A stretch of 64,000 nt of DNA. It comes from Chloroflexota bacterium. GTDB taxonomy: Bacteria; Chloroflexota; Limnocylindria; QHBO01. Positions 21,309-53,915 of this stretch are shown here, piece by piece. The stretch is from assembly GCA_003243965.1 (NCBI GenBank), contig QHBO01000016.1, positions 225,826 to 289,825 on the forward strand, written 5' to 3'. The stretch's first letter is position 1. Each line of letters starts with the position of its first letter. Below the pieces are notes generated by a model, which searched no databases, was not told where the DNA came from, and was given only the letters and a program-made list of their open reading frames with translations. Both the position numbers and the translations under genes were made by a program.

Positions 21309-21995
21309 TTACTCGGGGTGGAGGGGAAGCCTCAGGATCAGCGCCAGCGCCGGCCGCTCGCGAACGCGCGGCGTGATCGGCGCGCGAAGCCAGGACTCCC
21401 CCGCTTCGCCGGCCCGGTAACGGGCATCGAGCCGCCGGGCGCTCAGCCCATCGATGCCGAGGGCGGCCAGCGCGTCGGCCACCAGGTGTCCCTCGCCGGG
21501 ATAACCGCGGCCCACGATCGCGCGGCCCGCACCCGGCAGGACCTCCCCGAGCTCACGGCGCCGCGCCGCGAACGAGCGGCGCGTCCAGGATCGTCCCGCC
21601 GACCACAGCAGGTCGCTGGCGACGTAGGCCGGCGCTCCGCCGCGCCGGGCGCCGGAGAGGCGCGCCCGAAGAAGCTCCGGATCCGGACGGCCGGAGGCAT
21701 CGAGGACCACCAGCCAGCCGTCGAGCACCACGCCGTCCTCCCGCAGCTCGGCGGTGATCGCCGCCAGCTCGGGGAACGCGGCGAGCGCATCGGCCAGCCC
21801 GCTGACCTGCATCCGGAGACGGCCGTGCTCCGCGAACACGATCGCCCGGATTCCGGGCCACCACGGCTCGAACAGATAGCCGGCATCGTCGAACGGCTCG
21901 TCGACCGCCACCGGCTGCATCGGTGAGATGCGTGACGGCAGTCGCCGGGGCGAGCCGCCACCGGGGATCGTGAGCGGGAGCTGCTCCGGCTCCAC
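21309..21995 (-). CDS. Ligase-fold pseudoenzyme coupled to Ku
   Basis: 228 residues that follow the layout of a LigD/LigB adenylation domain but lack its catalysis. Motif I, usually ExKxDGxR, reads EPWWPGIR (Lys to Trp, Asp to Pro). Motif III, usually DGE, reads LDGWLVVLD. The IIIa-like stretch YVASDLLW survives. Motif IV, usually EGxxxK, is DGLSARR, and motif V WLK is WLRAP. The GTG at 21995 lies 9 nt after the ku stop on the same strand, so co-translation is likely. Probably a structural or regulatory end-joining factor; function is inferred from context only. Confidence 0.7.
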   Translation of the reverse strand: MEPEQLPLTIPGGGSPRRLPSRISPMQPVAVDEPFDDAGYLFEPWWPGIRAIVFAEHGRLRMQVSGLADALAAFPELAAITAELREDGVVLDGWLVVLDASGRPDPELLRARLSGARRGGAPAYVASDLLWSAGRSWTRRSFAARRRELGEVLPGAGRAIVGRGYPGEGHLVADALAALGIDGLSARRLDARYRAGEAGESWLRAPITPRVRERPALALILRLPLHPE

Positions 21996-22004
21996 GCCCC
22001 GCAG

Positions 22005-22898
22005 CTAGGCGGTCTTGCGGCGGCGCTGGGGGCGCGGAGCCTCGGCCACCTCGGCCACCTCGGCCACCTCGGCCACCTGTGGCTCGGTCGCGACCTCCTC
22101 GGCGCCCGCTTCGCGACGCGCCTCGCGCGCGGCTGCCACCGAGGCCTCCAGGGCCGCCATCAGGTCGCCGATCTGGGTCGGCTCGACGCGGTGGATCGGC
22201 TCGGGCGCTTCCCCCGCGACCTTGGCCTCGATGACCGCCATCAACGCCTGGCGGTAGTCGTCGCGATAGGCATCGGCGCTGAAGTCGCCGGTCATGCTCG
22301 CCACAAGCTGCTCTGCCATTGCCACTTCGCCCGGCTTGAACTGGATCTCCTCCTCGGGAAGCGCCAGCTCCTCGATCGACCGCACCTCATCGGGCCAGTG
22401 AAGGGTGGTGAGCAGCATGGTGCTGCTGAACGGGTTGAGCGCGGCGAGCTGTTCCCGGTCCTTCAGCACGATCTTGCAGATCGCGGTCTTTCCCTCATCG
22501 GCAAGGACGCGCTTGAGCAGGTAGAACGCCTTGCGACCGATGCTCTCCGGCTCCAGGTAGTACGCCTGCTTGACGAACTGCGCGCCGTGCGCTTCCCGGC
22601 GCGCATCGACGAAGAGCTCGATCTCGATCGCGCGCAGCGTGGCCAGCGGAATCTGGTCGACGTCCTCCTCGGTGACCACCACGTAGCGACCCTTGGCGTA
22701 CTCGTAGCCGCGCACCGTCTCCGAGCGCGGCACGACCTCGTCGTGGTACGGGCAGTAGATCTTCATCTGGATCCGGTTCAGACAGGTCGCGTGGAGCATG
22801 TTGAAGCCGATCCCGCCCTGCTCGGTCGCGAGGTAGAGCTTGACCGGGATCGTCACCAGACCGAACTGGATCGCCCCTCGCCACATCGATCGCGCCAT
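22005..22898 (-). CDS. ku: Ku protein (non-homologous end joining)
   Basis: 297-residue bacterial Ku homodimer subunit that encircles DNA double-strand ends and recruits ligase. The start MARSMWRGAIQFGLVTIPVKLY is diagnostic; further family blocks are KGRYVVVTEEDVDQI, YYLEPE and ALNPFSSTMLLTTLHWPDE. The ATG at 22898 is preferred over an upstream in-frame ATG because GAGGAAGG precedes it. The C-terminal tail has a VAE repeat and a basic end (RPQRRRKTA) of the kind that aids DNA binding. A TATAGT -10-like element lies upstream. It is followed closely by the ligase-like protein gene. Confidence 0.95.
   Translation of the reverse strand: MARSMWRGAIQFGLVTIPVKLYLATEQGGIGFNMLHATCLNRIQMKIYCPYHDEVVPRSETVRGYEYAKGRYVVVTEEDVDQIPLATLRAIEIELFVDARREAHGAQFVKQAYYLEPESIGRKAFYLLKRVLADEGKTAICKIVLKDREQLAALNPFSSTMLLTTLHWPDEVRSIEELALPEEEIQFKPGEVAMAEQLVASMTGDFSADAYRDDYRQALMAVIEAKVAGEAPEPIHRVEPTQIGDLMAALEASVAAAREARREAGAEEVATEPQVAEVAEVAEVAEAPRPQRRRKTA
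22041..22076. repeat. Four 9-bp tandem repeats inside ku
   Basis: CTCGGCCAC repeated four times without interruption, encoding the VAEVAEVAEVAE stretch in the Ku tail. In-frame and likely to vary in copy number between strains by slippage. Confidence 0.85.
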
Positions 22899-23067
22899 GG
22901 TCCTTTGCCTTCCTCGAGCTGTCGGGCGGTGACTATACATCGGCCCCGCAAGCGGGCCCGATGGCCACCGATGGGCGCCAACGGCCGCCGATGTGCGCTA
23001 CAGGTACCAGCCTCGACAGGCCATGCGGCCATTGTTCGGCTCGTGGCGGTACGAGAGACTCCGCCGC

Positions 23068-24016: not shown

Positions 24017-24772
24017 ATGCGCGTGATCCGGGTCGCGGCCGCCCGCGCCACTCCCGCCGCTCGGGTACGCCGCGGCAGCGTGTGGCTTGCGATCCTCGTT
24101 CTGCCGTCCGCCACGCTCGCATTGGTCGTCGCCACCCCGCCTGCCTGGCGACCGCTGGGCGGAGTGGCGCTGGCGGTGGGGCTCACCGTTGCGGTCGCGC
24201 TGCTGGTCAACGAGCTGCGGGAGCGTGGACGCCCCAACCGGGACGTCGAGCGCCTTCTGGCACCGATATTCGGCGAAGAGTACGTGCTCATCGTCGGCCT
24301 CCACGTACCGGCGACGCGCGGCGAGCTGGCGGCGCTCCTGGTCGGGCCGGCCGGTGTCCGCGCGCTGCTGGCTCGGCGCTGGGAACATCGGTTCCGGGTC
24401 CGGGGCCGCGCCTGGGAGGTCGGAGCCGAGCAGGGATGGGTGCCGTTCGCGGAGAATCCGTCGTTCGATGCGCTCGCCCTCCGCGAGGCGGTCGAGCAGT
24501 GGATCGCCGTGACCTCAGGCGAACCGGGCATTCCGATCGCCGCCACCATCGTCTTCCCGCGCGCCGGAAGCCGGGTCATCCTCCAGGAGCCGGACGTCGA
24601 GATCGTGACCCGCGACAACGCCCCGTGGTGGGCGCAGCGCATCGGCCGTGTGCAACGGCTCGACGCCTTCCGCGCGACACGCCTGGTCGACGCGCTGCTG
24701 ACCGCCGCTCGGCCCGACGCCCGCGCTCGGTTGCCACGCCAGGGCGAGGCGGTCGCCCCGCCCCGAGGCTAG
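24017..24772 (+). CDS. Membrane-anchored NERD-like protein
   Basis: 251 residues. Two N-terminal hydrophobic segments (LAILVLPSATLALVVA; GGVALAVGLTVAVALLV) are followed by a soluble domain with VLIVGLHVPATRGELAALLVGPAGVRALLA, FRVRGRAWEVG and IPIAATIVFPRAGSRVIL, the strand and spacing pattern of NERD (nuclease-related) domains. The NERD acidic and Lys residues are not clearly conserved, so catalytic activity is doubtful. The 3' end overlaps the convergent ligase gene by 4 nt. Confidence 0.55.
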   Translation: MRVIRVAAARATPAARVRRGSVWLAILVLPSATLALVVATPPAWRPLGGVALAVGLTVAVALLVNELRERGRPNRDVERLLAPIFGEEYVLIVGLHVPATRGELAALLVGPAGVRALLARRWEHRFRVRGRAWEVGAEQGWVPFAENPSFDALALREAVEQWIAVTSGEPGIPIAATIVFPRAGSRVILQEPDVEIVTRDNAPWWAQRIGRVQRLDAFRATRLVDALLTAARPDARARLPRQGEAVAPPRG

Positions 24773-26511
24773 CCCTCCTCGGCGACGCCGGTCGCCGCGA
24801 TCCGCTCGGTGGTGCCGCCGGCGCCGGTGGCAAGCAGGATCCGGCCGCTCGCCTGGGCCACGTACAGCGACTCGGCGCTCGCCAGGGTGTCGATCTCGGC
24901 CGGCGTCTTGTCGGTGCGGATGCGCATGATCCTCGGAAAGCGCAGCGCAAAGCCGGACCGATGCCGACCGCTGCGATGAATGCGGTCGAACGCGATCTCT
25001 ACGACCACCTCTGGCACCACGGTCCGGTAGCGACCGAAGTCACGGAGCGTGATCGAGGTGAATCGAGCGGTCATCTCGGCGATCTCGGCATCGGTCAGCC
25101 CGGTGTAGGCCTTGCCGATGGTCAGCAGCCGGTCGTCGTCTTCGCCGGCCCGAACGGCGAACGTGTAATCGGAGAGCACACCACGCCGCTTCCCGTGCCC
25201 CCACTCGACGCCGACCACCACACAGTCGAGGGTCGCCAGCGCTCGCTTCAGCTTCAACCATCCAAGCCCGCGACGTCCGGGCTGGTATGCGGAGCCCGGG
25301 TCCTTGACCATCAGCCCCTCGTTACGCCGTTGTCGCGCGTCGTCGAACGCCACGTCGATCTGGTCCGCACCGCGGGCCGTGGCCAGGTGCGAGTAGAGCA
25401 CCCGCTCACCGGTACGCTCCGGTAGCCGCAGCGCCTCGAGCGCAGCCCGCCGCTCTCGCAGCGGGAGGTCGAGCAGATCGCTGCCGTCCAGGTGGAGCAG
25501 GTCGAACGCCACCAGCGCCACCGGCACGCGCTCCAGCAGCTCCGGATCCGGCCGCACCCGCCCGAGGCGCGTCTGCAGGCTCGCGAAGTCGAGCATCGCA
25601 CCTTCACGGAAGGGGACCAGCTCGCCGTCGAGGACCATCTGCCCGGGGAGCGTCGCAAAGGCGGAGGCAACCTCCGGGAATGAGACGGTGACGTCCTTGA
25701 GGTCGCGGCTGAAGAGGCATGGCGCCAGGTCGGGGCCAACATGCAGCTGGGCGCGAATTCCGTCGTACTTGTCCTCGATCCAGGCCTCCTCGCCGACACG
25801 GCGCACCACGTCGTCCGCATCCGCGACCGGCGTCGCCAACATGCAGCGCAGCGGCCGCCCGAGGCGCAACGCGGCCTCGCCGAGCCGATCGTCCGCGGCC
25901 AGCAGGGCGACCTCGCCCGGCTCACCGATCAGCGTCAGCGCCCGCCCCACCGCGGCCGGGTCGTGGCCAAACGCCGCCGCGATCGCCTCTTCCAGGATCC
26001 CCTCGCGCAGCCCGATACGCAGCTCGCGCGCCGCGATGCGGCCGATGTAGCGCGCTTCGGCGGGGCCGACGCGCTCGAACAGGCAGCGCAGCAGACCCAC
26101 TCGCCCCTCCCCGGACGAGGCCTCCGCGATCCGGCGGAACACCGCCTCGACACCGGCCAGCGTCGCCACATCATCGGCGACCGTCCGCTCGTCGCCGATG
26201 TGCAACCGGGTCGCGAGCAACTCCGCTGCGACATCGCCGAAGTCGGAGTGGCGCAGGTACGCCTCGTGCATCGCCTCCTCGCTCGCCCCGGAAGCGGCGC
26301 CGAGCGCGGCAGACTGCTGGACCCAGCCGAGCCCCAGCCGGTCGGCGGCACCAGGGAGCGGACGTCCCGCAAAGAAGGTCGCGGCGCGCGGGACATCGGG
26401 CGTCTCGAGCTCGCGGAGGTAGGCCGCCAGCAGGTCACGTTTGCGGAGCCTGGATCTGGTGGCGGCGACGGCGTCGGCCGTCCGCGCGAACGCTGCAAAG
26501 GGCGACGACAT
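24769..26511 (-). CDS. lig: ATP-dependent DNA ligase (archaeal/LigB type)
   Basis: 580-residue ligase that seals nicks through an enzyme-AMP intermediate. An N-terminal DNA-binding domain (about 1-210, with RIAARELRIGLREG) precedes the adenylation domain: motif I EDKYDGIRAQLH with the nucleotidyl lysine near residue 248, motif III LDGELVPFR, IIIa ALVAFDLLHLDG, motif IV NEGLMVKDP, motif V WLKLKRAL. The OB domain follows with VVVGVEWGHGKRRG and RFPRIMRIRTDK (motif VI). All catalytic residues are intact. TAGACT lies 9 nt before the ATG, leaderless-like. With Ku 2 kb away it is the probable end-joining ligase. Confidence 0.93.
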   Translation of the reverse strand: MSSPFAAFARTADAVAATRSRLRKRDLLAAYLRELETPDVPRAATFFAGRPLPGAADRLGLGWVQQSAALGAASGASEEAMHEAYLRHSDFGDVAAELLATRLHIGDERTVADDVATLAGVEAVFRRIAEASSGEGRVGLLRCLFERVGPAEARYIGRIAARELRIGLREGILEEAIAAAFGHDPAAVGRALTLIGEPGEVALLAADDRLGEAALRLGRPLRCMLATPVADADDVVRRVGEEAWIEDKYDGIRAQLHVGPDLAPCLFSRDLKDVTVSFPEVASAFATLPGQMVLDGELVPFREGAMLDFASLQTRLGRVRPDPELLERVPVALVAFDLLHLDGSDLLDLPLRERRAALEALRLPERTGERVLYSHLATARGADQIDVAFDDARQRRNEGLMVKDPGSAYQPGRRGLGWLKLKRALATLDCVVVGVEWGHGKRRGVLSDYTFAVRAGEDDDRLLTIGKAYTGLTDAEIAEMTARFTSITLRDFGRYRTVVPEVVVEIAFDRIHRSGRHRSGFALRFPRIMRIRTDKTPAEIDTLASAESLYVAQASGRILLATGAGGTTERIAATGVAEEG

Positions 26512-53216: not shown

Positions 53217-53915
53217 TCAGCGGTCGCCGATGAAGCGCCTCCGCTTCGGGCGCTGGCCGAACATGCGGCCGAAGATGCTCGGGCCGTGCTCGTGGGCGGC
53301 CGAGATCTCGATCCAGTCCTCGCTCACCTCGCCGGGGTGGTAGCGCGAGTTCATGTGCTTGGCCACGTAGTGCGTAAACCCGTTCGCCCGCCAGGCGAGC
53401 AGCCACGAGTCGATGGGGAGCCGCACCGCGGGGCTGATCCGCACTCGCACGTTCTCCTCCACCACCGAGCTGAGCAGCCGCCGGCGCTCCTGGTAGGGCA
53501 CCTCGTGGAGCAGCTCACCGTCGAGCTCGACCAGGTCGAAGACCACGAACGCCCGCCGCGTCTCGTTGGCGACGGGGTCGGGAACCTCGCCGGCGAGCCC
53601 CTCTTCGGCGAGCGTCGAGGCCCAGTGGCGCGCCGCGCTTCCATCTCCCACGAAGGGCTGCGCGGTCCACACTCCGTCGAGGACGGCCTGCTGGGCAGCC
53701 ACCGATGGGCCGATCACCTCGCCCGCCTCACGATACTCATCGTCGACGGGCGCGCCCAGCCGGTCGGTGAGCCGGGCAGCGCCATCGGTCACGCGCGCCA
53801 GCAGACGGTCGCCGCGCCAGGCGGGCTCGAAGAGCCATTCGACGCTGGCCACGATCGTGTCGCTGCGGGTCGCAAGCTGGGGCAGGCGCGAGGTGTCGAG
53901 CAGCTGATCGGTCAT
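53217..53915 (-). CDS. Second ligase-fold pseudoenzyme
   Basis: 232 residues with ATP-dependent ligase layout but disrupted catalysis. Motif I is FEPAWRGDR (Lys to Ala, Asp to Arg); motif III is LDGVWTA (Glu to Val); IIIa AFVVFDLVELDGELL is well kept, as is motif IV THYVAKHMNSRYHPG, while motif V ends DWIEIS (Lys to Glu). The tail is basic (QRPKRRRFIGDR). It is divergent in sequence from the Ku-linked protein at 21309. Lies between the glycosyltransferase operon and the DEAD-box helicase. Confidence 0.68.
   Translation of the reverse strand: MTDQLLDTSRLPQLATRSDTIVASVEWLFEPAWRGDRLLARVTDGAARLTDRLGAPVDDEYREAGEVIGPSVAAQQAVLDGVWTAQPFVGDGSAARHWASTLAEEGLAGEVPDPVANETRRAFVVFDLVELDGELLHEVPYQERRRLLSSVVEENVRVRISPAVRLPIDSWLLAWRANGFTHYVAKHMNSRYHPGEVSEDWIEISAAHEHGPSIFGRMFGQRPKRRRFIGDR

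Follow-up and report, generated by a model that had tools for sequence, protein, structure and literature searches.

The window, which is the whole stretch of 64,000 nucleotides analysed here, comes from a Chloroflexota assembly of the class Limnocylindria (2.2 Mb, 93% complete). Directly after its ku gene lies a small gene for a lysine-free pseudoligase, which we call PSL-A (Table 1). The GTG start codon of PSL-A follows the ku stop codon by 9 nt, exactly as the original prediction had it. The codon composition is of the coding type, with a GC3 of 0.87 against a GC2 of 0.57, and the closest protein match among those listed, from a Candidatus Limnocylindria bacterium, is 99% identical.

Table 1. 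Features of the PSL-A locus (positions are those of the window)
Feature	Position	Strand	Description and basis
PSL-A gene	21309..21995	-	228 aa, GTG start; lysine-free pseudoligase (ORF list, profile matches, homologues)
ku	22005..22940	-	directly upstream of PSL-A, same strand; Ku_bact 260 bits, cut-off 150
Adenylation (nucleotidyltransferase) fold	21372..21941	-	PSL-A residues 19-208; structure prediction and fold match
Motif I position, EPWWPGIR	21846..21869	-	Trp45 in place of the AMP-lysine, Pro47 in place of Asp; alignments
Motif III position, DGW	21714..21722	-	Glu lost, family has DGT; alignment
Motif IV position, DGLSAR	21435..21452	-	Lys replaced by Arg187; alignment
Motif V position, WLRAP	21378..21392	-	Lys replaced by Arg204, then Pro206; alignment
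Clamp-binding-like hexapeptide QLPLTI	21966..21983	-	residues 5-10, N-terminal tail; alignment; block pLDDT 65 (residues 1-10)
C-terminal tail motif LALILRLPL	21321..21347	-	low-pLDDT region; common to PSL-B
ATP-dependent ligase	24769..26511	-	N-terminal, adenylation and C-terminal domains; motif I EDKYDGIR with Lys; profile search

PSL-A had been proposed to be a ligase-type adenylation domain, and both the profile matches and the predicted nucleotidyltransferase fold bear this out. Pfam DNA_ligase_A_M matches it with an E value of 3e-5 and 24.2 bits, slightly below the cut-off of 26.2. The NCBIfam models PRK09632 (E 5e-27) and NHEJ_ligase_lig (E 1.5e-21) also match, with scores far under their cut-offs, and mycobacterial LigD sequences from the PDB match at E values of about 1e-18. 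The fold is predicted to be that of the LigD ligase domain, and it stops near residue 208 of 228. The Pfam scan describes a single-domain protein, devoid of the polymerase and phosphoesterase domains of LigD, and gave no match to the OB domain (DNA_ligase_A_C) in the window PSL-A or in the homologues P0004 and P0121.

When PSL-A is aligned to M. tuberculosis LigD, EPWWPGIR corresponds to EGKWDGYR, DGW to DGE, DGLSAR to EGVIAK and WLR to WVK. The AMP-handling lysines of motifs I, IV and V are thus gone, as claimed beforehand. In our homologue search, 857 of the 7998 scored candidates had E values of 1e-3 or lower, the weaker of which may include ordinary ligases, and among the best 120 the motif I lysine position is occupied by Trp in 119 and by Ser in one. 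The motif IV position is Arg in 119 of the 121 aligned rows and Lys in two, and the motif V position is Arg in 120 and Lys in one. For motif III, the loss of Glu was correctly foreseen, whereas the DGW sequence is a local variant: the family consensus is DGT, with Thr at the third position in 112 of the 121 rows and no Glu among the residues listed. A catalytic lysine at a shifted position is ruled out for the window PSL-A, because the protein contains no lysine at all, and it would therefore be unable to seal DNA. By the features tested, PSL-A is not a ligase, despite its predicted ligase fold.

A related observation is the near-total avoidance of lysine in these arginine-rich proteins. Besides the window PSL-A, 86 of the best 120 homologues are entirely lysine-free. 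Lysine accounts for 0.14% of PSL-A residues; the LigD ligase domains of the class (14 proteins) reach 2.9% and the window Ku 3.9%. The window holds eight other called genes of more than 150 aa without lysine, and base composition alone may be the source of the depletion. The residues that replace the catalytic ones at the dead site (FEPWWPG) are fixed among the PSL-A homologues, and the dN/dS values range from 0.07 to 0.32 in 13 pairs; the dead form thus is under purifying selection. Overall, the evidence supports the view that PSL-A is a pseudoenzyme kept for binding.

The linkage to ku is conserved across related genomes, in line with the expected co-occurrence. Our class sample comprised 177 genomes, in 131 of which Ku was found. 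PSL-A occupies 39 places in 38 of them, counting the search rows with E values of 1e-59 or better and a frame-split copy in G080 (L089), and in 36 of the 39 it follows ku immediately and in the same orientation. Two of the three unlinked placements are at contig edges (G107:C9 and G069:C88), and the third (G065:C90) is truly unlinked. Ku is present in 37 of the 38 genomes with PSL-A, versus 94 of the other 139. A conserved gene order with ku is a feature of bacterial NHEJ components, and PSL-A shares it. The original prediction cast a dead ligase as a partner of Ku, for example as a DNA-end clamp or a recruiter of the active ligase at 24769, and is partly supported. The fold, the residue loss and the conserved linkage stand, and neither outcome that would have refuted it, a structure without the nucleotidyltransferase fold or a lysine at a shifted position, was observed; binding to Ku, an end-clamp activity and recruitment of that ligase would be predictions. 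A set of 33 loci, referred to below, was found by the pattern FEPWWPG and favours Trp-bearing members, while the homologue search, the class-genome search and a search of 400 Chloroflexota genomes were independent of that pattern. One locus (L014, JAICUY010000008.1), on a contig titled Steroidobacteraceae and perhaps mis-binned, has ku and PSL-A genes that closely resemble the window's, with 86% identity in Ku. One scan of viral contigs with the patterns FEPWWPG and DG[TW]LLVLD yielded 15 pattern matches and no relative.

The second conserved element of PSL-A, missed by the original prediction like the Lys-bearing relatives described below, is its N-terminal tail. The proteins start with the consensus M-x-x-(D/E)-Q-L-x-L-P-V/L, in which Q, L and L do not vary in any of the 91 aligned rows with the tail; the remaining 30 of the 121 rows mostly begin at an internal Met, taken as a mis-called start. 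Among the 90 PSL-A proteins showing the pattern, 84 have the Gln at residue 5. Direct reading of the loci found the strict pattern in 26 of the 39 PSL-A loci, in all 21 loci of PSL-B, a sister family described below, and in no Lys-bearing ligase out of 19 (17 from the class and two from other phyla). A second count, on slightly different rows, gave 25 of 37, 20 of 20 and 0 of 20 Lys-bearing rows of the class, respectively. Three of the 13 PSL-A loci that fail the strict pattern keep QLxL and miss the last position only, and in the other ten the tail is degenerate or lost. Within the first 14 residues of other called genes, the strict pattern was found in 0 of 679, and the strict pattern or a wider one, which allows Ile at the fourth position, in 0 of 918. 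At the DNA level, a pattern for the tail peptide matched 352 times in the window's own genome, versus 529 times for the reversed control.

A QLxLxL or QLSLPL-type peptide in a flexible tail is a feature of beta-clamp binders, and PSL-A carries such a peptide, albeit degenerate in 10 of the 39 loci. The clamp-binding consensus has been given as QL[S/D]LF (PMC12309361). The QLSLPL peptide of Hda is required for clamp binding (PMC3836487) and interacts with E. coli DnaN with a dissociation constant of 280 nM (PMC12309361). The identical hexapeptide begins two of the PSL-A proteins, P0042 and P0094. The window genome encodes a beta clamp (DnaN), and its Y-family polymerase has QLTLFD near the C-terminus. 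The N-terminal tail of PSL-A is therefore best described as a putative sliding-clamp-binding motif, predicted from its sequence. The opposite end of the protein is also recurrent: a C-terminal tail of the LALIxRLPL type is present in 32 of the 39 PSL-A loci and 19 of the 21 PSL-B loci, and in none of the 19 Lys-bearing ligases.

PSL-B lacks the motif I lysine as well, with Ser, Trp, Ala or Thr at that position in 120 of the 120 homologues listed. In a 16-row alignment it mostly keeps DGE, and AR replaces AK. Its start reads MxDQLSLRL, with QLSLRL in 99 of the 120 homologues listed, and it is located away from ku in the loci read. PSL-B was found in 64 of the 177 class genomes (matches at E values below 1e-65, and a copy in G041 matched in two pieces, L088) and PSL-A in 38, and no genome has both. 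Within family f2 alone, 19 genomes have PSL-A, 64 have PSL-B, 24 have neither and none has both (Fisher p 1.5e-9, ignoring shared ancestry). This complementary distribution suggests that PSL-A and PSL-B replace each other across genomes. Ku was not found in 7 of the 64 PSL-B genomes. Given this and the position of PSL-B away from ku, a pseudoligase with a clamp-type tail need not act with Ku.

A third protein of the window (53220-53915, minus strand, 231 aa, FEPAWRGDR, pLDDT 84.9) also combines the ligase fold with a motif I that lacks the lysine, and all 50 of its listed PDB matches are DNA ligases. Among its 120 listed homologues, the residue replacing the lysine is Ala in 72, Tyr in 27, Cys in 10, Ser in six and single other residues in five; none has a motif I Lys or the strict tail pattern, and many keep the motif IV lysine. 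The gene is preceded by a DEAD-box helicase gene and followed by a gene whose product weakly matches a glycosyltransferase. The 25 relatives included in our tree belong to four families of the class and group in a single clade.

The search of a sample of 400 Chloroflexota genomes with the PSL profile returned, among the rows listed, matches spanning to the end of the profile only in families f1 and f2; the next-best matches were mostly ligases of 340-390 aa. We read 48 stretches with such relatives (L154-L201) and four earlier ones. In family f22, 19 of the 22 distinct loci are ku-linked, and the motif I residue is Lys in 20 and Arg in two. Tails such as QLSIEL conform to the wider pattern in 21 of the 22 and to the strict pattern in none. 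Over 39 Lys-bearing rows of the phylum, 19 have the wider tail and none the strict one. Most f22 ligases end in LTRFPF. The ligases of f5, f4 and f12 are ku-linked in nine of nine cases, with Lys and without the tail. The lysine is also missing beside ku in three other families: f19 (L158, L162 and L182-L186; 7/7 ku-linked), where it is replaced by Ala in six and Ser in one; f78 (L161, L187 and L188; 3/3 ku-linked), where it is Met and the start overlaps the ku stop; and f9 (L191, L192 and L198; 3/3 ku-linked), where it is Asp in two and Glu in one. In these forms the tail is absent even by the wider pattern. The single copy of f82 and one of the two f17 copies have Arg, with no ku in the stretch fetched. 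The OB domain scored above the cut-off in the one scanned member each of f22, f19, f78, f9 and f82. Outside this family tally (f45, f55 and two f2 rows), the f45 copy L193 reads FEPLRGGLR and the others have Lys, none of them with ku in the stretch.

Our phylogenetic analyses recovered PSL-A, PSL-B and the third family each as one clade. The joining of PSL-A and PSL-B was not resolved in the first tree and received support of 92/79 and 85/77 in later trees, values that are not decisive for a joint clade. On a tree of 62 rows, the presence or absence of the lysine needs four changes, and a single clade of the Lys-less Ku-linked groups, with the f22 copies left out, was not rejected by the AU test (p-AU 0.062). 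At least the Lys-to-Arg loss in f22 was separate, because both copies nest inside the Lys-bearing f22 ligases. Apparently, a ligase of the Ku operon became a non-catalytic subunit.

The window ligase at 24769 has an N-terminal ligase domain as in LigB/Lig1-type enzymes. Besides the window, 5 of the 33 loci have a close relative of this ligase in the neighbourhood of ku, and several loci have flanks too short to tell. The LigD of the window genome, on another contig (C17), keeps its Lys and has the polymerase and phosphoesterase domains. In 9 of the 33 loci (L020-L022, L024, L025, L027, L030, L033 and L034), a LigD-type gene lies within the same cluster, with FEPKWDGYR or FEVKWDGYR as motif I. 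The window's genome also has a second ku (L094, 6293-7204, minus strand, contig C12), and a PSL profile search of the 13 kb around it revealed no ligase-like ORF.

We favour the interpretation that PSL-A acts as an adaptor without catalysis: it would dock on Ku at broken DNA ends, and its QLxLP tail is predicted to hold the clamp, with the sealing left to a separate Lys-bearing ligase, likely LigD. We would put the chances of this interpretation just short of even. The ancestor would have been a Ku-operon ligase already equipped with a clamp-type tail, which may have given up catalysis after LigD took over sealing. The domain would have been retained because it binds Ku or DNA ends, much as the ligase domain of M. 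tuberculosis LigD binds the Ku core (PMC9638933), and because it carries the tail. With PSL-A docked on Ku or on Ku-held ends and the clamp held via the tail, clamp-dependent polymerases could be brought to these ends and fill gaps before LigD seals them. Alternatively, PSL-A might keep the ends together in a complex ready for ligation, a capacity reported for inactive human Lig4 (PMC9638927). Several observations speak against the adaptor interpretation: PSL-B genes are located away from ku and 7 of the 64 genomes with them have no Ku found, 10 of the 39 PSL-A loci have a degenerate tail or none, the f22 tails fail the strict pattern, the f19, f78 and f9 forms lack even the wider one, and the support for a clade of PSL-A and PSL-B reaches only 92/79 and 85/77. 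On the larger scale, we propose, slightly more tentatively, that end joining in Chloroflexota has a third core part: a clamp-tailed Ku-operon ligase would have lost its catalytic role, possibly on several occasions, and become a subunit that in Limnocylindria is a lysine-free pseudoligase tying Ku-bound ends to the clamp.

The same fold and the same position after ku would also suit a brake, which occupies the Ku surface or the nick used by the LigD ligase domain and thereby lowers or times end joining, for example by keeping Ku-LigD from clamp-marked forks. The M. tuberculosis Ku core binds the LigD ligase domain directly (PMC9638933), and a LigD-type gene in the same cluster at nine of the 33 loci would place the competitor close by. 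However, the sequence evidence does not separate a helper from a competitor, and the loss of the OB domain would weaken the encirclement of DNA, and therefore the competition at nicks, so that we consider a brake unlikely. Another possibility would be that PSL-A is a structural, end-holding subunit in which the clamp has no role and the tail binds something else. The structural role of Lig4 offers a precedent (PMC10858965), and both the degenerate tails at ten PSL-A loci and the non-canonical N-termini of f19, f78 and f9 agree with it. The fixation of Q, L and L in all rows with the tail, the frequent QLSLRL of the listed PSL-B homologues and the similar tail on Lys-bearing relatives argue the other way, and we regard this explanation as improbable.

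The main role could also lie outside end joining, for example as a clamp-bound sensor of nicks or flaps in replication, with the ku linkage as a mere operon convenience. This would account for PSL-B, which is not at ku and occurs in seven genomes without a detected Ku. Such a role is hard to reconcile with a ku linkage that is kept across two families and is found again in Lys-bearing and Lys-less relatives of other families, and we consider it quite unlikely. Although one copy is split across two frames (L038/L089), a decaying pseudogene is refuted by conservation, as seen in the low dN/dS, the similar lengths of the 120 listed homologues and the fixed residues of the dead site, and we give this explanation almost no weight.

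The usual description of bacterial NHEJ involves two proteins, Ku and LigD. What is new here is a natural, selected loss of catalysis beside ku, together with a clamp-type tail and a graded series of relatives. Our literature search, which covered the listed titles and abstract openings, with few subscription papers among them, revealed no paper on a natural bacterial pseudoligase or on a clamp-bound NHEJ ligase. If our interpretation is correct, the dead ligase beside Ku would parallel, as a product of natural evolution, the structural role found for inactive human Lig4, and the clamp-binding tail would connect bacterial end joining to the replication machinery. E. coli RecBCD also binds the clamp (PMC13254535). 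Moreover, the series of relatives, from forms with Lys and the OB domain, through those with the OB domain and no Lys, to those with neither, would allow the transition from enzyme to scaffold to be tested directly with natural proteins.

Hda is an AAA+ protein and does not have the ligase fold. The likeness of this beta-clamp-tethered DnaA regulator to PSL-A concerns the peptide: its N-terminal QLSLPL, needed for clamp binding (PMC3836487), is identical to that of P0042 and P0094. H. pylori LigA is likewise a bacterial ligase with a clamp-binding peptide, but it is NAD-dependent, its peptide lies at residues 554-561, and no Ku link is described in the available part of the report (PMC4976356). 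PSL-A differs from the LigD ligase domain (NHEJ_ligase_lig, TIGR02779) in having neither the lysines of motifs I, IV and V nor an OB domain, and from LigD as a whole in having no polymerase or phosphoesterase domain; conversely, the PSL-type tail pattern precedes none of the 19 Lys-bearing ligases. Many bacterial ku genes share operons with active ATP-dependent ligases (PMC1378119). Among such arrangements, the f22 ligase (L154 and others) is like PSL-A in lying directly after ku and in its QLSIEL or QLQIEL tail, and it has a C-terminal RFPF tail. Unlike PSL-A, it keeps FEVKWDGLR and EGIVAK, and L154 has the OB domain and passes the NHEJ_ligase_lig cut-off (233 versus 227.75 bits). Human DNA ligase IV offers a further parallel: deprived of its lysine, it continues to promote end joining and also helps Lig3 (PMC9638927). 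That protein is the laboratory mutant K273A, whereas in PSL-A the loss is natural and conserved.
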